Positions 13,648 to 26,532 of a stretch of 64,000 nt of DNA are shown here, one piece after another. The translations under genes and the position numbers were made by a program. The notes beneath the pieces are model-generated. The model was not told the origin of the DNA. It did not search any database and was given only the letters and a program-made list of their open reading frames with translations. Positions within the stretch are counted from its first letter, which is position 1. Every line of letters starts with the position of its first letter. Origin of the DNA: Dehalococcoidia bacterium (GTDB taxonomy: Bacteria > Chloroflexota > Dehalococcoidia > Lucifugimonadales > Lucifugimonadaceae); the NCBI GenBank assembly GCA_022451965.1, contig JAKUNJ010000005.1:85465-149464 (forward strand). Reading direction: 5' to 3'.

Positions 13648-15960
13648 TCAATGACTTTCATCATCATGCCCTTCATCGTGATGCTCTCTGAAATTAAGCA
13701 TTTCTTGATACTTATGATGGTTTTCTTCTTCAGCTTCATGAGCAGTTTGCCCAGGAGCAACAACCAATACAGGAACACCTGGCTCAGCAGGGAAAGCTTC
13801 AACAGTTCCTTCAAATTTTGGTAATTTTTCGTTTCCACCAGCTCTTTTCATTGAAACTTTTGTTGAAGCCCAAGCATGTGCACCAGAATCCTCATCTTTT
13901 AATCCTGATAATATTTTGAGAACATTTGAACCTCTATCAGAAGCGTATCTACCACCTTTGAGAGTTCCTTGTCCTGTTGGAACACATAATGTACCTGGTT
14001 GCACTGCTGGATGAGGATATGCTAAACATTTGATTTCACCAGAGTCAGACTTCAAGTAAATAATATCTCCTTCTTTTATATTTAGTTCACTTGCTTGTTT
14101 TGAATTGATTTCAACCCAAGTTTGCCAAGCAGCTGAGGTTATACCATCAGCAGACTGTTGTGCCCATGGAGAATTTGATAATCTTCCATCTGATAGAACA
14201 TTTGTGAAAGGTATTAAGTGAAACTCATCTCCATAAGTATTGTCGATCTCTGAAAAGTTACTATTATTTTTTAATTCAAATGGATTTTTTAGTCTAATTT
14301 TTTTCTGGTCAGCAACTTCTTTTGTGTTCCAGAATCCACCTCGCTGCTGAATTCCATTCATGAAAGAAGATTTATTTTCAGCTTGAACAGATCCAGTCCC
14401 ATTTGAATTATCGTATTCATTATCAAAAACTTTTTTTACAATTGATTTATTACTACTTCCTATTGAGGGTTCAAGTTCTATAAGTTTATCAACATAACTA
14501 ACAGAGCCACTAGCTCCAGGACCTTCCTTGACAACTACGGGCTGTTGTAATGAAATAGCCTTAAAGCCAGGCAATGGATTGGGTATTTCAGATCCCCATT
14601 CTTCAAAAAATGATGTTTCTGGTATGATTATGTCTGATAAATCAAGAGTTTCATTCATTATGTTTCCAAAAGAAATTACATTTTCGACATTTGAAAGTGC
14701 TCCCTTTACATCAAGTGAGTTAGGCATTAGATAAGCTAAATCTACCCCTTTAATGATCACTGTATCAACATATCCTGCTCGCCACTGCGCTAATTCTTCC
14801 TCCCAATTTTCTATTGAATTTGGTTTATTTGAGCCTCCTATGAAATCAGACTGAACTTCAGGATTTAGGATAACTCCGCCTTGTTTTCCAACCGAACCTA
14901 AAAGAATGTTAAGCGCAAGAGCATTATAGGTATTAAATTTACCGTTAGTATATGCTGATGTTGACCCTCCTGCTAAAACTATAGAATTACCTTCAGAAAT
15001 TCTTTCAGCTGTTTCTATTATTTTCTTTGCAGAAACACCAGTTCTACTTTGGACATCTGCTGGAGTAAATCCAAATTCTACTTTTCCCTCAGGAAATTTA
15101 TTTAAGTAATCATTTATTTGAGACTCTGGAACAAGCTTATTCTGAATTATTACATTTGCAATAGAAAGTGCGATATCAGCCTCAGTTCCTGGCTTAGGAG
15201 AAATCCACAAATCAGAGTTAGCTGAAGTTAATGAGAACCTTGGTTCTACATGAGCTATAAATCCTCTATTTCCTGATCTAAGTTTTCCAAAAGCCTTTCC
15301 ATATCCTGCAGGTGAAATCCAGTTTTCAATCCAATCTGCACCAAATGAAAGTACATTATCAGCATTGGAGATGTCAAAATGAGGTATTTCTTCTGATTCA
15401 AAAAGTTCTGAAATAACTTCATGAAAATTATATTCTTCAAGTGGTTCAAATGTGAGATATCTACCACCTCTAGACTCTGCAAATTTTTGAGACACCCAGC
15501 CTTGAGTACTTCTAGTAGGATTCGTTACAACTACAATCTTTTTGTCTTTTGAAGTTGCATCTTTAATCAGCTTATCTGCTTGAGATTTTGTAACATTTGA
15601 AAGTATACCTTGTTTTGATCTTCTTACTTGATGATCATGCAATCTGTCAGGATTATAATGAAGCTGAATTGCGGCATCAAGATTTGACCTGGCTCCACCT
15701 CTATTTACAGGATGATCAGGGTTACCTTTAATTTTCTTTATTCTTCCTTCTAATACTCTTACTAAAATACCATCCCCAGAAGCTCCATCATTCCAAGATG
15801 TTGCATACCATGTATCTATTCCTCTAACTAAATCCTCAGGCATATCAACTGGACTTTGAACAAGTAATTCTTGTTCAGGAATTGAGCACGCAGCAAAAAT
15901 AACTGCTCCAGCAGCTGATTTTCCACTCAAGGATAGAAATTCTCTTCTATTTAGTTTCAT
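13648..15960 (-). CDS. actB1: Alternative complex III molybdopterin-oxidoreductase-like subunit (ActB large part), Tat exported
   Basis: This 770-residue protein starts with a twin-arginine signal (NRREFLSLSG) and FAACS at about residue 25, which could be a lipobox-like site. The body has the fold-level marks of molybdopterin oxidoreductases (for example VNRGGARSNLDAAIQLHYNPDRL and SDIIIPETSFFEEWG), but in ACIII this subunit is known to lack the cofactor. The C-terminus is His/Asp/Glu-rich (HHDEGHDDESH), a possible metal-binding tail. An AGAGGT site precedes the ATG. It should sit outside the membrane holding the Fe-S subunit. Confidence 0.9.
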   Translation of the reverse strand: MKLNRREFLSLSGKSAAGAVIFAACSIPEQELLVQSPVDMPEDLVRGIDTWYATSWNDGASGDGILVRVLEGRIKKIKGNPDHPVNRGGARSNLDAAIQLHYNPDRLHDHQVRRSKQGILSNVTKSQADKLIKDATSKDKKIVVVTNPTRSTQGWVSQKFAESRGGRYLTFEPLEEYNFHEVISELFESEEIPHFDISNADNVLSFGADWIENWISPAGYGKAFGKLRSGNRGFIAHVEPRFSLTSANSDLWISPKPGTEADIALSIANVIIQNKLVPESQINDYLNKFPEGKVEFGFTPADVQSRTGVSAKKIIETAERISEGNSIVLAGGSTSAYTNGKFNTYNALALNILLGSVGKQGGVILNPEVQSDFIGGSNKPNSIENWEEELAQWRAGYVDTVIIKGVDLAYLMPNSLDVKGALSNVENVISFGNIMNETLDLSDIIIPETSFFEEWGSEIPNPLPGFKAISLQQPVVVKEGPGASGSVSYVDKLIELEPSIGSSNKSIVKKVFDNEYDNSNGTGSVQAENKSSFMNGIQQRGGFWNTKEVADQKKIRLKNPFELKNNSNFSEIDNTYGDEFHLIPFTNVLSDGRLSNSPWAQQSADGITSAAWQTWVEINSKQASELNIKEGDIIYLKSDSGEIKCLAYPHPAVQPGTLCVPTGQGTLKGGRYASDRGSNVLKILSGLKDEDSGAHAWASTKVSMKRAGGNEKLPKFEGTVEAFPAEPGVPVLVVAPGQTAHEAEEENHHKYQEMLNFREHHDEGHDDESH

Positions 15961-19714: not shown

Positions 19715-20773
19715 ATGAGTGAAAATATTAGAGTTGGGGTTATTGGAGCAGGTGGTAATACAACATTAAAACATATCCCTCTTTTACAAAAGATTCCAGG
19801 AGTAGAGATTGTTTCTGTAGCAAATAGATCCATTAAGTCTTCAAGTGAAGTCGCTTCTCAGTTTGAAATAAAGAATTATTTTGACAATTGGATAAATGTT
19901 GTTGATGATAATTCATTAGATGCTATAGTTATCGGTACTTGGCCATACCTCCACAAAAGACTTTCAATAGAAGCACTTGAATCAGGTAAACATGTCCTAT
20001 GTGAAGCTAGAATGTGTATGAATGCACAAGAAGCTCAAGAAATGTTAGATGTATCTCAAATGTATCCTAATCTTGTCTCACAGATTGTACCAGCTCCTCA
20101 TACATTGCCTGTAGATAAGACAATAAAGAGATTAATTTCCTCTGGTTATATTGGAGATCTAGTAAATTTAAGAGGTATAGTAACTGCAGGAAATGATTTT
20201 CCAAAAGATAATGAAGATTATCATTGGAGAAATAATAGAGATTTATCTGGTAATAATATTATGCAAATGGGAATTTGGTACGAAGCAATTATGAGATGGC
20301 TTGGACCAGCAAAATCTGTTTCAGCTAATGCTCAAACCATTAATAATCCAAGATTAGACGAATCAGGAAATTATGTGTTTACTGATATTCCAGATCACTT
20401 AGATGTTATTTGTGAAATGATTGCAGGTGGAACAGCTAATCTACAATTTACTATGGTTTCGGGAATGGCTCCTGAATCTGAAATGTGGATTCATGGAACA
20501 AAAGGTACTTTGGTTTTGAAAACAGAAACTACAGCAGATGCTGGAGCTCCAAAATTAGTACTTATGGGTGCAGAAAAAGGTCAAAAATCATTAGAAGTAA
20601 TTTCTATCCCGAAAAATGAAATTGGTGAATGGAGAGTAGAAGAGGAATTCATAAATGCTATTAGAGGTAAAGAAATTATTACTCATACATCTTTTACTGA
20701 CGGAGTTAAGTATATGAAGTTCACAGATGCAATTTATGATTCCTTTAGTACAGGCCAAAAAATAGTTATCTAA
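19715..20773 (+). CDS. Gfo/Idh/MocA-family oxidoreductase
   Basis: This 352-residue protein has an N-terminal Rossmann domain (RVGVIGAGGN, then VSVANRS) and a C-terminal alpha/beta domain (GIWYEAIMRWLGPAKSVSA, GTKGTLVLKTE). Members oxidise or reduce sugar-like substrates with NAD(P). The usual EKP motif, whose Lys is catalytic in many members, reads HVLCEARMCMN here, so this Lys is absent. Either the chemistry is changed or the protein is not a dehydrogenase. A strong AAAGGGGAT site precedes the ATG. It is the first gene of an eight-gene operon; the next gene starts 5 bases downstream. Confidence 0.85.
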   Translation: MSENIRVGVIGAGGNTTLKHIPLLQKIPGVEIVSVANRSIKSSSEVASQFEIKNYFDNWINVVDDNSLDAIVIGTWPYLHKRLSIEALESGKHVLCEARMCMNAQEAQEMLDVSQMYPNLVSQIVPAPHTLPVDKTIKRLISSGYIGDLVNLRGIVTAGNDFPKDNEDYHWRNNRDLSGNNIMQMGIWYEAIMRWLGPAKSVSANAQTINNPRLDESGNYVFTDIPDHLDVICEMIAGGTANLQFTMVSGMAPESEMWIHGTKGTLVLKTETTADAGAPKLVLMGAEKGQKSLEVISIPKNEIGEWRVEEEFINAIRGKEIITHTSFTDGVKYMKFTDAIYDSFSTGQKIVI

Positions 20774-20778
20774 ATTAT

Positions 20779-21546
20779 ATGAAAAAATTTATAGACATAA
20801 ATGCCGATATTGGAGAATCGTTTGGCAGTTATAAACTTGGTTTTGACGAAGAAATAATTAAATATATTTCTTCTGCTAATATAGCTACAGGCTTTCATGC
20901 AGGTGATCCAAATTGGATGAATCATACTATAAATTTGTCTCTAAAAGAAGGTGTATCAATTGGGGCTCATCCTTCCTATCCAGATTTATCTGGATTTGGT
21001 AGAAGAGATATGAATCTTAATCCTGACGAAATCAAGAATATTATTAAGTATCAGGTTGGTTCAATGTTGGGTTTTGTAGATATAGAAAAATTACAGCATG
21101 TTAAACCTCATGGAGCTTTATACAATAAAGCAGTCAAAGATAAAGATATTGCAAAAGCAATAATTGAATCAATTAAATCAGTAAGTACAGAATTAATACA
21201 CGTTGTTTTAGCAGGATCATTATGGGAGAATTTAGCAAATGAAGCTAATGTTAAGTATGTCAGAGAAACATATGCCGACAGAGAATTTATGTCTGATGGA
21301 TCCTTGACTCCAAGATCAATTCATGGCTCTGTTATTGAAAATACTACTAGAATTATTGAAAGAACTTTGAAACTTATCAAAACAGGTAATGTAGACTCAT
21401 TTCAAGGCGATGAAATATCAATAAAATTTGACTCAATATGTCTTCATGGTGACACTAAAGGGTCTGTGCAAATTGCCAAAGAAATAAGTGAATCTCTTAA
21501 AAAGAATAATATAGGCATCAAATCAATGTCTAACATTTTGGCATGA
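20779..21546 (+). CDS. pxpA: 5-oxoprolinase subunit A (PxpA, LamB/YcsF family)
   Basis: This 255-residue protein begins with DINADIGESFGSYKLG, followed by NIATGFHAGDPNWM, IGAHPSYPDLSGFGRR and HVKPHGALYN, all diagnostic of the LamB/YcsF family. PxpA acts with PxpB and PxpC in ATP-dependent opening of 5-oxoproline to glutamate. Its stop overlaps the pxpB start, and pxpC follows, so the full set is present. The order A-B-C is compact, and the genes continue straight into a biotin carrier and sodium-pump subunit. Confidence 0.95.
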   Translation: MKKFIDINADIGESFGSYKLGFDEEIIKYISSANIATGFHAGDPNWMNHTINLSLKEGVSIGAHPSYPDLSGFGRRDMNLNPDEIKNIIKYQVGSMLGFVDIEKLQHVKPHGALYNKAVKDKDIAKAIIESIKSVSTELIHVVLAGSLWENLANEANVKYVRETYADREFMSDGSLTPRSIHGSVIENTTRIIERTLKLIKTGNVDSFQGDEISIKFDSICLHGDTKGSVQIAKEISESLKKNNIGIKSMSNILA

Positions 21547-22211
21547 AAAAAATTAGCATTAATTTTCACGGGGACTCAACATTAATACTTAGTTTTGGTG
21601 AAATTATTGATGAAAAATTGAATATTGAAGTACATAAATGTACTGATTTTCTTAATAGTAAAATACTTAATTGTTCTTATGTTATTGATATATATCCTAC
21701 TTATAATTCTATAGTAATTGATTATGACCCCCAAAAAATATTTTATGAAGATATAAAAAAAGAAATAGAAATATTATTATCAGAAATAGATATATCTAAT
21801 GATGAAATTATTACTCCAAAGATTATAAATATTCCAGTAAAATATGGAGGTGATAATGGACCTGATCTTAAAAGAATGTCCCAATCTCTTAAGATTTCAG
21901 AGGATGAAATAATAAAAATTCATAGTTCTATAAATTATAGAGTTTATATGTTAGGGTTTATGCCTGGTTTTCCATATTTGGGAGGATTGGATAAAAAAAT
22001 ATCATTCCCCAGGCTAAATAAACCAAGATTATCTGTACCTAGTGGTTCAGTTGGAATTGCAGGTGACCAAACAGGTGTTTACCCTTTTAAGTCACCTGGA
22101 GGTTGGAATATTATAGGTAAAACTAAATTGAAATTATTTGATAGATCTAATGATCCTCCAAACTTAATTTCAACAGGAAGCTATATCAAGTTTACAATAG
22201 ACAATGATTAA
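21543..22211 (+). CDS. pxpB: 5-oxoprolinase subunit B (PxpB, KipI/AHS1 family)
   Basis: This 222-residue protein carries the AHS1 signature: YMLGFMPGFPYLGGLD (residues about 135-150), RLNKPRLSVPSGSVGIAGDQ, and TGVYPFKSPGGWNIIG. AHS1 and AHS2 domains are homologous to the carboxyltransferase domain of urea carboxylase, and in stand-alone form act in 5-oxoprolinase (PxpB/PxpC). The start overlaps the pxpA stop by 4 bases and the stop overlaps the pxpC start by 8 bases, so the subunits should be made in equal amounts. Confidence 0.94.
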   Translation: MKKISINFHGDSTLILSFGEIIDEKLNIEVHKCTDFLNSKILNCSYVIDIYPTYNSIVIDYDPQKIFYEDIKKEIEILLSEIDISNDEIITPKIINIPVKYGGDNGPDLKRMSQSLKISEDEIIKIHSSINYRVYMLGFMPGFPYLGGLDKKISFPRLNKPRLSVPSGSVGIAGDQTGVYPFKSPGGWNIIGKTKLKLFDRSNDPPNLISTGSYIKFTIDND

Positions 22212-23241
22212 TATTATTAACTCTGGATTATTTTCAAGTTTTCAAGATTTAGGTAGATTTGGTAAAAAGTCTTTGGGAGTTTCTCAATCAGGTAGCTTAG
22301 ACAAATATTCTTTTATGATATCTAATATTTTGTGTGGAAATAAGATTAATGAAGGAGCAATTGAGATTATTGGTGGTGGATTTTTATGTGAATTTTTGAA
22401 TTCTGTTTCAATTTCAGTTTCAGGTCCAATTGGTTATTATCTAATTAATAATAAGTGTGTACCTATTAATTCTTCAATTAAGGTAAATAAAAATGATGTT
22501 TTAATGATTCCTTCAAATGAAAATGGTAACGTTTTTTATTTTTCTATTGCTGGAGGCTTTGATATTGAAGAAATTATAGGTTCATATTCATATCACCAAC
22601 CTTCTAATATTACTGACAAACTCAAGATATCTTCTGGCCAAAATTATCTTATGAAAAAACCAAATTCTGAATTCCAAAAAATGATAAGTCCGTCCTTTTA
22701 TCAAAAATATCTTAAACCAGTAAATGATATAAGTATAATTTTTGATAAAAAAATAGAAGAAAAAAATAAAAAAATAGTTAATAAATTACTTTCAAATGAA
22801 TTTACTATTTCTGATCAATTATCAAGACAGGGAATCAAGCTCAATTGTAAGGAAAAATTGGTTCATAGAATTGGAAATGAGATTTCTTCAGGAGTATCCC
22901 TAGGAACTGTACAATTACCTCCAAACGGAGAACCTATTATTTTACTAAATGATTCTCAAACAACTGGAGGATATACTAAACTTGGAAGGATTCCTGATTT
23001 TGAAATATCGAGAATTGTACAAAGTAAAACTTTTAGTAAAATAAAATTCAAAAAGACTGATATTTATCAATCTAGTGAAGTTATGAAATCTATGGATTCA
23101 GAATTTAATTCGATAAAATTTTCTGATTATTTTTTATCTATTCACAAAATAAAAGACTCTTTTGTTTCAGTTCAAATTTCTGAAAATGGTAGTATAATAG
23201 CCATATCCAATGAACAACTAATAAATATTAATAAGGAATGA
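22204..23241 (+). CDS. pxpC: 5-oxoprolinase subunit C (PxpC, KipA/AHS2 family)
   Basis: This 345-residue protein starts with INSGLFSSFQDLGRFGKKSL then GVSQSGSLD, the AHS2 N-terminal signature, and near its end has QLPPNGEPIILLNDSQTTGGY, the other conserved block. The domain is homologous to part of the urea carboxylase carboxyltransferase domain, and databases often name it a biotin-dependent carboxyltransferase. The next gene encodes an OadG-like membrane protein 3 bases downstream, then a biotin carrier, which makes a carboxybiotin-linked role worth considering. Confidence 0.93.
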   Translation: MINIINSGLFSSFQDLGRFGKKSLGVSQSGSLDKYSFMISNILCGNKINEGAIEIIGGGFLCEFLNSVSISVSGPIGYYLINNKCVPINSSIKVNKNDVLMIPSNENGNVFYFSIAGGFDIEEIIGSYSYHQPSNITDKLKISSGQNYLMKKPNSEFQKMISPSFYQKYLKPVNDISIIFDKKIEEKNKKIVNKLLSNEFTISDQLSRQGIKLNCKEKLVHRIGNEISSGVSLGTVQLPPNGEPIILLNDSQTTGGYTKLGRIPDFEISRIVQSKTFSKIKFKKTDIYQSSEVMKSMDSEFNSIKFSDYFLSIHKIKDSFVSVQISENGSIIAISNEQLININKE

Positions 23242-23244
23242 TTT

Positions 23245-23628
23245 GTGGATAATGTTTTGATAGATGGCTTTTACTTGTCGGGTATAGGTACTTTAGTTGT
23301 TTTTTTAGTTCTGATCTTGTTACTGATTTCAATTAAGATTATTACATTCTTTGAAAATAAAAATAATTTAGATGAATTGGAAATTTCTCAAAATTCTGTG
23401 AAGCAAAATAAAACAAAAGGATTGATAAATATTGCTGCGGCCATGGCTGTAGGTTTATATAAAAAAGAGAAAACTAACTTAAATGATGTTGCGGCTGCGG
23501 TAGCAGTTAGTTTATATAAGAAAGATAACCTTTCAGAATCTAAATTGGTTGAACCATATTTGGTGGAATCTTCATGGGTAACAATTAACAGATCAAGAAT
23601 GTTATCAAGAAAAAATAGAAGGATATAA
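23245..23628 (+). CDS. OadG-like small membrane subunit with internal AAAxAVxLYKK repeat
   Basis: This 127-residue protein has one N-terminal helix (residues about 10-35), then a soluble tail in which IAAAMAVGLYKK (63-74) is repeated as VAAAVAVSLYKK (82-93). Such Ala-rich amphipathic stretches after one membrane helix are seen in gamma/delta chains of sodium-pumping decarboxylases, which link the biotin carrier and carboxyltransferase to the beta subunit. The start is GTG after an AAGGA site. Homology is by layout and by context (next to a biotin carrier and OadB), so the family call is moderate. Confidence 0.65.
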   Translation: MDNVLIDGFYLSGIGTLVVFLVLILLLISIKIITFFENKNNLDELEISQNSVKQNKTKGLINIAAAMAVGLYKKEKTNLNDVAAAVAVSLYKKDNLSESKLVEPYLVESSWVTINRSRMLSRKNRRI

Positions 23629-23632
23629 AATT

Positions 23633-24085
23633 TTGTCTAGAAAATATAATCTAAAGATAAATAATCAGAGCTTTTTAGTTGAAATATTGAGTGAGTATGA
23701 AGGGATATTTAAAGTCAATGTAAATGGTACTATTGTTGAGGTAATGGATACTTCAATATCTTCAGATGTACCAATAAAAAATAATTACTCAGATCAAGAA
23801 AATAACTCTCAAATACAACTAGATACTGAAAAAGAAAATATTTCTCCCAATCAATCAAATGATAAAAGAAATTCTGGTCAAATTAAGGCAATGATGCCAG
23901 GAAAAGTATTAGAGATTTTAGTAGAAATAGGTGATGAAGTATCATTAGGTACTCCACTTATGATTGTTGAATCAATGAAAATGGAGAATACGATTAGCTC
24001 TACTATGTCAGGTAAAGTAAGCAATATATTTATATCAATTGATGACAGTGTTCAATATGATCAAATCATGATTGAAATTGAATAA
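23633..24085 (+). CDS. Biotin carboxyl carrier protein of a decarboxylase/carboxylase
   Basis: This 150-residue protein ends in a lipoyl/biotinyl domain. MMPGKVLEILVEIGDEV leads to the biotinylation motif ESMKMENT, where Lys116 should carry biotin. A low-complexity Asn/Ser/Glu linker (about residues 40-85) joins it to an N-terminal domain (residues about 5-40) of the kind found before biotinyl domains in decarboxylase alpha-chain tails. The start is TTG after GAAGG; an in-frame ATT just before it is another possible start. Its neighbours are OadG-like and OadB, so it should shuttle CO2 as carboxybiotin to the sodium pump. Confidence 0.92.
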   Translation: MSRKYNLKINNQSFLVEILSEYEGIFKVNVNGTIVEVMDTSISSDVPIKNNYSDQENNSQIQLDTEKENISPNQSNDKRNSGQIKAMMPGKVLEILVEIGDEVSLGTPLMIVESMKMENTISSTMSGKVSNIFISIDDSVQYDQIMIEIE

Positions 24086-24106
24086 TAATCTAACGAAAGA
24101 AATTTT

Positions 24107-25306
24107 ATGATTGAATATATTGAACCATTACTCGAAGGAATAGAAGATCTAATATCAAATCCTGGAATGGTTATAATGTGGTTAATTTCTGGATTACTTT
24201 ATTATTTTGGAATTTATAAAAAGAAGGAACCTCTTTTACTAATTCCAATATCAACTGGAATATTGTTAGCAAACCTACCTATGGGTGAACTTTTGAGAAC
24301 AGGAGGAAATGGAGAGCCCGAAGGATTTATTAGGATTTTTCAAAATATAGGAATGTCAACAGATGTACTCCCTCTACTTATTTTTCTTGGTATGGGTGCT
24401 TTGACTGATTTTGAACCAGTTTTATCTAATCCCAAAACTCTGTTGTTAGGTGCAGCTGCACAGTTTGGAGTTTTTATTGCCTTAGTGGGGGCGCTATTAA
24501 TTAGTTTGACTCCCATTTTTGATTTTGGACTTTTAGAAGCAGCATCAATCGGAATAATTGGTGGAGCTGATGGTCCTACTACCATATTTATATCAACTAG
24601 AATGAGAGAAATAGGCGAAAGTATTGTAAATTATGATATTAAAGATATTGTTGGAGCTACTGCAGTAGCAGCCTATTCCTATATGGCCTTAGTTCCAATA
24701 ATTCAACCACCAATAATTAGGCTTTTTACTACAAAAAAAGAAAGACTAATTCGCATGGAATATTCTTCTAAAAATATTACTAAGAAAACTAAGATAATTT
24801 TTCCAATTACTACAATTATTATTGTAAGTATTTTAGTACCTGATGCATCTCCTTTGATTTCTATAATGATGTTTGGTAATTTACTTAGAGAGTCAGGAGT
24901 TGTAGATAGACTAGCTAAAACTGCTCAAAATGAATTGATGAATGTTGTAATTATATTATTAGGTCTCTCTGTTGGAGCAACTATGCCCGCAAAAGTTTTC
25001 TTAAGAGTTGAAACTATTTCAATTTTTATTCTAGGACTAGCATCTTTTATAATTGCTACTATTTCAGGAATTTTATTAGCAAAATTAATGAATTTATTTC
25101 TCAATAAGCCTATCAATCCGATGATAGGAGCAGCAGGTGTGTCTGCAGTACCTATGGCTGCTAGAGTTGTTCAAAATGAAGCTTCTAGAGAAGACCCTGA
25201 TAATTATTTACTTATGCATGCAATGGGACCAAATATAGCTGGAGTAATTGGTACAGCCACCGTAGCAGGTGTATTGTTAGCCGTAGTTCCACAATTAGTG
25301 AGTTGA
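24107..25306 (+). CDS. oadB: Sodium-translocating decarboxylase beta subunit (OadB/MmdB/GcdB family)
   Basis: This 399-residue polytopic protein decarboxylates carboxybiotin while exporting Na+. The motif IGGADGPTTIF (residues 151-161) contains Asp155, matching the Asp essential in Klebsiella OadB. A second block, NPMIGAAGVSAVPMAAR (337-353), keeps Asn337, Gly341, Ser346 and Arg353 at the spacing of the Klebsiella residues N373, G377, S382 and R389. The pump core therefore looks functional. The carboxyltransferase alpha subunit that normally completes the complex is not in the window; pxpABC occupies its place in the operon. Confidence 0.95.
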   Translation: MIEYIEPLLEGIEDLISNPGMVIMWLISGLLYYFGIYKKKEPLLLIPISTGILLANLPMGELLRTGGNGEPEGFIRIFQNIGMSTDVLPLLIFLGMGALTDFEPVLSNPKTLLLGAAAQFGVFIALVGALLISLTPIFDFGLLEAASIGIIGGADGPTTIFISTRMREIGESIVNYDIKDIVGATAVAAYSYMALVPIIQPPIIRLFTTKKERLIRMEYSSKNITKKTKIIFPITTIIIVSILVPDASPLISIMMFGNLLRESGVVDRLAKTAQNELMNVVIILLGLSVGATMPAKVFLRVETISIFILGLASFIIATISGILLAKLMNLFLNKPINPMIGAAGVSAVPMAARVVQNEASREDPDNYLLMHAMGPNIAGVIGTATVAGVLLAVVPQLVS

Positions 25307-25313
25307 TTCTTTA

Positions 25314-26069
25314 ATGGAACTATCTATCTATATTTATATAACTCTTTTTATTTTATGTTCCTTAATTGGATTCTTCGGTGGGCTTTTGGGAATTGCTTTA
25401 GGAGCTGTAAGATTACCTATTATTATTTTTCTTGGAGTTGAACCAATAATTGCCGCATCAACTAATCTTTTGGCTGTTATTTTTGGCTCAACCGCAGGTT
25501 TATTCCCTGCAATAAAGCAAAAAAGAGTTCCAATAAAATCTAGTATTAATATTGCTATCCCTTCTATGATAGCCGCTTTTTTGGGAGGATACTTTGCTGT
25601 AAACTTGTCTGAGTTTTTTCTACTATTAATAATAATAATTTGTCTGATAATTTCTGGTACAGTAATGATTTTTTATAAAGCTGAAGCTAAGGCAATCACG
25701 AACGATAAAAAGAGTAGATTTAAGGAATTATTAGTTGGAGTATTAGTATCTTATTTTGGAGGTATTGTGGGTTTGGCTTTAGGAGTCTTGAGAGTTCCAG
25801 CATTAGTATATTTCCTAAGAATGAATATTAAGACAGCAGGTGGAATAAACCTTTTTTTATCAGTTTTAGTTGGAGTTTCTGCCTATTTAGGACATTCTTT
25901 TTCTGGGAAATTTGATTATATATTAGTATTTTGTGTGGTTTGTCCAACTATTATAGGGATGTATTTCGGATCTAAGTTTGTACAAATTGCTAACCAGGAA
26001 CAGCTTAGAATATTATTGGGAGTAATTTTGATTTTATTATCTTTATTTATGACTTTAAGACTTCTATAG
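25314..26069 (+). CDS. TauE/SafE (TSUP) family permease
   Basis: This 251-residue protein has about eight hydrophobic segments in two homologous halves: FFGGLLGIALGAVRLPIIIF near residue 20 and GGIVGLALGVLRVPALVYF near residue 145. This duplicated Gly-rich motif marks the TSUP family, whose members move sulfite, sulfoacetate and other small organic anions, often outwards. It closes the pxp/OadB operon 7 bases after oadB and ends in a bidirectional hairpin. By context it may move the substrate or product of the operon; the actual solute is unknown. Confidence 0.88.
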   Translation: MELSIYIYITLFILCSLIGFFGGLLGIALGAVRLPIIIFLGVEPIIAASTNLLAVIFGSTAGLFPAIKQKRVPIKSSINIAIPSMIAAFLGGYFAVNLSEFFLLLIIIICLIISGTVMIFYKAEAKAITNDKKSRFKELLVGVLVSYFGGIVGLALGVLRVPALVYFLRMNIKTAGGINLFLSVLVGVSAYLGHSFSGKFDYILVFCVVCPTIIGMYFGSKFVQIANQEQLRILLGVILILLSLFMTLRLL

Positions 26070-26106: not shown

Positions 26107-26532
26107 TTATTTTTTAGTTTCCCAAAAAATATCCCCAATCTCTTCTAAAGCAGCCTTAAACTCTTTTGCTTTATCAAGATCAACATTGACTTTTACATAA
26201 GATCCTAGCTTACATGCATTCCAAACTTTTTCATGAAGATCAGGATATTTTTCTAAATGCTCAGGTTTAAAATAGTCTGTCCATATAACTAAAATATCAT
26301 CTTTAGCTTTTTTTGCATGTTCTTCTTTTGCAGCTACATATCTGGCCATTGAGTTGCCTAGTGAAGCGGAAGGTCCGCTTGAAAAATCTAATTCTTCAAG
26401 TAATTCTGTCATTCTTACTACTGTCTGTGCAGCTTGAATGGCATCCTTAGGATCATATATTCCACATGGAATATCACAATGACAGGTAACTTCGGTTATA
26501 GGTAAAATTTTATCTAGTAGATTAGCTAACAT
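26107..26532 (-). CDS. sodN: Nickel superoxide dismutase
   Basis: This 141-residue precursor contains the nickel hook HCDIPCGIYDP. Removal of the first 17 residues would expose His18 as the mature N-terminus, giving His1, Cys2 and Cys6 as Ni ligands, exactly as in known NiSODs. The rest (FSSGPSASLGNSMARYVAAKEEHA, IWTDYFKPEHL) is typical of the four-helix-bundle enzyme. It removes superoxide and needs cleavage by the protease encoded divergently 44 bp away. An AAGGAG site precedes the ATG. Confidence 0.96.
   Translation of the reverse strand: MLANLLDKILPITEVTCHCDIPCGIYDPKDAIQAAQTVVRMTELLEELDFSSGPSASLGNSMARYVAAKEEHAKKAKDDILVIWTDYFKPEHLEKYPDLHEKVWNACKLGSYVKVNVDLDKAKEFKAALEEIGDIFWETKK

Follow-up and report, generated by a model that had tools for sequence, protein, structure and literature searches.

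The window analyzed here, a 64,000-nucleotide (64-kb) stretch of contig JAKUNJ010000005.1 from a Dehalococcoidia bacterium, carries an operon in which pxpA, pxpB and pxpC precede the genes for an OadG-like scaffold, a biotin carboxyl carrier protein (BCCP) and OadB, the carboxybiotin/Na+ subunit of Na+-translocating decarboxylases. Biotin carboxylase (BC; PF02785) had no match in the host genome, nor in any of eight congeners. In relatives, OadB and BC are distributed reciprocally and are exchanged around the same operon; OadB is therefore taken to point to carboxybiotin synthesis at the cost of the Na+ gradient. The balance tips slightly toward a replacement of BC in this lineage by OadB, the OadG-like scaffold and BCCP, run in reverse on that gradient. 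The wider proposal, to which just under even weight is given, is that marine Chloroflexota lineages gave up ATP-dependent BC and that Na+-driven reversal of OadB charges the sole BCCP, powering fatty-acid synthesis and other carboxylations, including those by PxpBC.

Reciprocal Distribution of OadB and Biotin Carboxylase

Counted as genomes and not as evolutionary events, the 120 relatives surveyed comprise 74 with OadB only, 23 with BC only, 17 with both and 6 with neither (Fisher p 5e-9). Taking one genome per family, which only softens this limit, gives 15 with OadB only, 17 with BC only, 6 with both and 2 with neither (p 1.2e-4), and genomes at least 90% complete divide into 29, 14, 9 and 1, respectively (p 4e-6). 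Across 380 Chloroflexota, OadB occurs in 24 of the 31 genomes without BC as opposed to 48 of the 349 genomes with it (p 1e-13). All six PxpC-bearing relatives without OadB that are more than 70% complete carry BC. Furthermore, 43 genomes have OadB and lack both BC and OadA, and PxpC is found in 41 of these. Where genomes of genus g9 hold both proteins, BC lies inside single-chain carboxylases of 1110–1205 aa with BC and carboxyltransferase domains (e.g., G025:C75, G034:C8), and the BC matches in g11 are weak and partial. Thermotoga maritima, included as a control, has OadB and yielded no BC, in agreement with the absence of BC noted in Thermotogales (PMC3199775). As a separate observation, one genome of family f8 of the order (G079) encodes 13 proteins with a PYC_OADA domain.

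In genera g3 (G010, G029) and g7 (G014), the order pxpABC-OadG-like-BCCP is retained and OadB is absent from both operon and genome. A 465-aa BC is encoded elsewhere in G010 and G014, and comparison with solved structures identifies the G014 protein as a genuine biotin carboxylase; no BC was found in G029, a genome 61% complete. The OadG-like protein of these genera is short and has no membrane helix, keeping an AAAIAVALA-type helix and a W...GR.R.M tail; the scaffold has become soluble where its partner did. A possible further case is G102, in which BCCP lies divergent to pxpA without oadB. Since BC only charges biotin and replaces OadB around the same operon, the role shared by the two would be carboxybiotin formation, although the direction may instead have switched together with the exchange.

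The Demand for Carboxybiotin in the Host

The host, a marine Chloroflexota and possibly a member of SAR202, with a genome of 1.25 Mb in 14 contigs (97.8% complete), encodes four kinds of carboxyltransferase: an AccD-AccA fusion, an MmdA-like protein, a 506-aa OadA-like protein that has no biotin domain, and PxpBC. FabD is also present, and a cell with AccD-AccA and FabD and no detectable BC therefore needs carboxybiotin to be made, for which no ATP-driven pathway was detected. No biotinyl carrier was found in the host genome other than the operon BCCP (23633–24085 of the window, plus strand; PF00364, 58.5 bits), further PF00364 matches being two lipoyl E2 proteins and one HlyD-like protein, and every biotin enzyme of the host should therefore use this BCCP. 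The biotinylation motif ESMKM, already pointed out in the earlier note, is present, with the codon of the biotin-accepting Lys116 at 23978–23980 (plus strand). Besides the carboxyltransferases, OadB is the only protein found that is able to load or remove CO2 on BCCP. The AccD and AccA domains form one 552-aa chain (L036:6861-8519) in this genome without AccC, and a 454-aa protein whose gene is flanked by those of the MmdA-like protein and malate dehydrogenase (L035:7596-8960, host contig C7) has no Pfam or NCBIfam match.

OadB is encoded by a single gene in the host genome (24107–25306, plus strand; PF03977, 469 bits). The five residues said in the earlier note to be kept are borne out by an alignment with 24 relatives, in which Asp155, Asn337 and Ser346 are fully conserved and Gly341 and Arg353 almost fully. 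Asp155 aligns with Asp203 of the solved Salmonella OadB, where Asp203 and Ser382 are required for Na+ binding (PMC7274780). The OadG-like protein (23245–23628, plus strand) scores below the cut-offs of both TIGR01195 (33.2 bits, cut-off 36.05) and PF04277 (22.0 bits, cut-off 27). It has an N-terminal membrane helix, two IAAAxAVxLY helix repeats and a tail with W....RSRM, and this layout of membrane helix and tail is kept across relatives; the tail was found by regular expression and missed in some loci, so that the scaffold count is a lower bound. In another genome, broken extra OadB copies with stops lie next to an intact copy (G273:C17:50602-51427, minus strand).

The Operon and the Conservation of Its Linkage

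Families were assigned to the operon proteins by Pfam and NCBIfam profiles. A Gfo/Idh/MocA oxidoreductase gene (19715–20773; PF01408, 7e-21) opens the conserved cluster and adjoins pxpA in most loci of the family. It is followed on the same plus strand by pxpA (LamB/YcsF; 20779–21546; PF03746, 302 bits; NF003814, 323 bits), pxpB (AHS1, carboxyltransferase subdomains C/D; 21543–22211; PF02682 or CT_C_D, 223 bits; TIGR00370, 202 bits and above cut-off), pxpC (AHS2, carboxyltransferase subdomains A/B; 22204–23241; PF02626 or CT_A_B, 170 bits), the OadG-like gene, the BCCP gene and oadB. The cluster closes with a TauE/SafE-family permease gene (25314–26069, plus strand; PF01925, 136 bits), which lies near oadB in nearly all loci of the family. 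Spacing is tight throughout, with 5 bases between the oxidoreductase gene and pxpA, overlaps of 4 bases (pxpA-pxpB) and 8 bases (pxpB-pxpC), and gaps of 3 (pxpC-oadG), 4 (oadG-BCCP), 21 (BCCP-oadB) and 7 bases (oadB-tauE). The earlier note had thus described the six genes from pxpA to oadB, their common strand, their gaps of at most 21 bases or overlaps and their two flanking genes correctly, its word “fused” excepted: the genes form an operon and no gene fusion is present. Its claim that the alpha carboxyltransferase subunit is missing holds at the oadB locus, where none is encoded, and fails genome-wide, where the OadA-like and MmdA-like proteins are encoded elsewhere. Beyond the cluster, the window holds a nickel superoxide dismutase gene just 3' of tauE (26107–26532, minus strand) and a molybdopterin oxidoreductase gene (13648–15960, minus strand) closest to menaquinone reductase QrcB.

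The co-occurrence of pxpBC, BCCP and OadB, proposed in the earlier note as worth surveying, recurs in other genomes. By the earlier note's own terms, its reading would have been refuted by an OadA-type alpha subunit elsewhere in the genome combined with a pxp linkage that relatives do not keep; such an OadA-type protein is present, but relatives do keep the linkage. In a survey of 57 OadB loci from the genus, family and order, pxpC stands beside oadB in 47. Two arrangements account for these: pxpC lies beside oadB on the same strand in 35 of the 57 loci, and pxpCBA is divergent from oadB-BCCP in 12. The other 10 have no pxpC nearby, some of them owing to contig ends. The same partners are thus kept in two arrangements, which argues for a functional link and led to the rejection of a chance neighborhood. 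Most members of the family also carry one or two aldolase-like genes of the DapA/HpaI family between oadB and tauE (e.g., L047:8203-9093, L053:8019-8921, L038:10286-11179); they are gone from the window. Outside the order the picture changes. A wider scan of genome contigs gave 80 OadB loci, with pxpABC beside OadB in four Chloroflexi only and OadA or MmdA at most of the others. In Chloroflexota beyond this order that lack BC, OadB is present, mostly alongside BCCP, in several cases alongside MmdA or OadA, and in none alongside pxp. The pxp link is therefore a trait of this order, and OadB without BC is more widespread. A scan of viral contigs with PxpC gave no match.

PxpBC and Biotin

PxpA, PxpB and PxpC are all encoded together in the window. 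The structural model of PxpC (pLDDT 82.6) aligns with Escherichia coli YbgK (Z 33.3, rmsd 2.5 over 295) and with the carboxyltransferase domain of urea amidolyase (Z 30.4, rmsd 2.8 over 301); the PxpB model was poor (pLDDT 55) and was left out of the fold search. Against the PxpC equivalog NF045499, the protein reaches 142 bits, under the cut-off of 500, and PxpC of the genus evolves fast.

Elsewhere, pxp genes also keep company with biotin genes. Among 14 plasmid pxp loci outside Chloroflexota whose annotation was read, from gene tables that are incomplete, 8 have an adjacent biotin carboxylase, 1 has two biotin/lipoyl carriers and 5 have no biotin genes. Clusters of pxpABC with accB/accC occur in Agrobacterium and Rhizobium (Rhizobiales), Lactiplantibacillus and haloarchaea. 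In addition, PDB entry 9yx5 is a Mycobacterium smegmatis long chain acyl-CoA carboxylase complex that contains the BC-bearing AccA3 and has MSMEG_0435-MSMEG_0436, homologues of PxpC and PxpB, bound to it.

Weighing the Direction of OadB

In the proposed reversal, Na+ influx through OadB would drive the reverse of carboxybiotin decarboxylation, in which CO2 and BCCP-biotin yield BCCP-carboxybiotin without ATP. The OadG tail may keep the soluble carboxyltransferases at the membrane, and a single charged BCCP would serve PxpBC, AccD-AccA (for malonyl-CoA) and the MmdA-like and OadA-like proteins. PxpBC would act as a carboxyltransferase, and its substrate, together with PxpA, is probably 5-oxoproline or a related lactam or amide. 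This mechanism is weakest in its direction, in Na+ coupling and in the substrate assigned to PxpBC. In sea water, the entry of two Na+ per turnover yields enough energy to form carboxybiotin. Pumps of this kind have been reported to run backwards in vitro (Dimroth and Hilpert, 1984, as cited in PMC10880623), and the Oad of Halomonas elongata acts as a carboxylase under a steep Na+ gradient (PMC7545133).

Several observations weigh against reversal and against a biotin role of PxpBC. Sequence does not reveal direction, OadB is best known as a decarboxylase, and OadA or MmdA could be what charges BCCP, from oxaloacetate or methylmalonyl-CoA, respectively. BC was judged absent from metagenome bins with a single model, BC and OadB occur together in the 17 relatives counted above, and 7 of the 31 BC-lacking Chloroflexota have neither. 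As to PxpBC, the E. coli type of PxpABC stands without adjacent biotin genes, and biotin-linked PxpC proteins are scattered over a tree with long branches and form no separate clades. Residues 137–139 of the window PxpC are TDK in place of the glycine-rich loop GGG present in nearly all other PxpC, the loop having been lost in the genus. A search for residues that tell biotin-linked from unlinked PxpC found none, and the biotin role of PxpBC here therefore rests on context.

The earlier note had read the PxpBC-biotin-OadB set as a possible Na+ pump. The conserved PxpBC-BCCP-OadB link and the biotin link of PxpBC, seen in the accB-accC neighbors and in 9yx5, uphold the set itself; forward pumping is less likely than OadB reversal. 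In a widened form of that forward pump, methylmalonyl-CoA, oxaloacetate or a carboxylated lactam would give up CO2 to BCCP through the MmdA-like protein, the OadA-like protein or PxpBC, and OadB would decarboxylate the carrier and export Na+. OadB does retain all known residues, a Carboxyl_trans protein is present in all 120 relatives, and many other bacteria, further BC-lacking Chloroflexota among them, have OadB together with BCCP and MmdA or OadA. What speaks against this direction is that BC, able only to charge biotin, replaces OadB beside the same scaffold and carrier, and that a cell without BC would have no obvious supply of malonyl-CoA despite encoding FabD. Oxaloacetate-driven pumping through OadA was rejected as a general role on account of the 43 OadB-bearing genomes that have neither BC nor OadA.

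It is likewise doubtful that the two halves of the operon are neighbors only, with OadB, OadG and BCCP serving AccD-AccA and the MmdA-like and OadA-like proteins in either direction and PxpABC being an ordinary 5-oxoprolinase that is merely co-transcribed. PxpABC without biotin genes is common and has been described as an ATP-dependent, biotin-free 5-oxoprolinase (PMC13274462); G009 has PxpC and OadB at separate loci (L045 and L156), and the 10 loci without nearby pxpC point the same way. Conversely, the link holds in two arrangements and outlasts the loss of OadB with BCCP in place (g3, g7), it is found again with accB-accC in phyla that are not related, and in 9yx5 a BC complex has a PxpBC pair bound to it. 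A transcarboxylase hub is improbable: the 506-aa OadA-like protein (5S kind), the MmdA-like protein (12S kind) and the separate BCCP (1.3S kind) match the three parts of the propionibacterial transcarboxylase, and the first might charge BCCP from oxaloacetate for AccD-AccA, the MmdA-like protein and PxpBC with OadB venting or topping up the pool, but the match to the 5S model (215 bits) is far under its cut-off of 827, and the same 43 genomes lack an OadA-like protein, which therefore cannot be the general solution.

Neither the natural replacement of BC by OadB nor a pxpABC-OadB operon was found in the literature searched, which left out most subscription journals; the parts, and their reversal in vitro, are known. 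Malonyl-CoA supply via BC is regarded as an ATP cost that almost all cells bear, and also as a drug target. If OadB reversal holds, a lineage paying for malonyl-CoA with Na+ would represent a new energetic solution, with OadB a carboxylase in nature, and BC-lacking genomes, the T. maritima control included, would be explained. PxpBC, part of a described ATP-dependent 5-oxoprolinase, would in turn be tied to biotin chemistry in a testable way.

Comparison With Known Systems

A biotin-dependent carboxylase combines BC, BCCP and carboxyltransferase; the host has BCCP and carboxyltransferases, and the ATP-dependent BC component was not found in it. The PxpC model aligns with the carboxyltransferase domain of urea carboxylase (Z 30.4 in 5i8i, 22.2 in 3va7), whereas the window PxpBC has no fused BC domain. 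The YbgJKL-type 5-oxoprolinase PxpABC of E. coli shares the three proteins, the overlapping genes and the PxpC fold, and differs in that the window set is linked to a biotin carrier and its PxpC lies far under the equivalog score. The pxpABC-accB-accC clusters of Agrobacterium, Rhizobium, Lactiplantibacillus and haloarchaea likewise join PxpABC to its own biotin carrier; in the window, oadB and a membrane-anchored scaffold stand where accC stands there. With the Na+-translocating decarboxylases (OAD, MCD, GCD), the operon has in common an OadB with the same residues and, as in MCD and GCD, a separate BCCP; its scaffold is OadG-like in layout, with scores below the profile cut-offs. Unlike them, it has pxpABC in place of an alpha subunit, belongs to cells without BC and most likely runs as a carboxylase. 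The Oad of H. elongata as a Na+-driven carboxylase is likewise a case of proposed reverse use of OadB under saline conditions; there, an OadA complex acts on pyruvate, whereas a general replacement of BC is proposed here.

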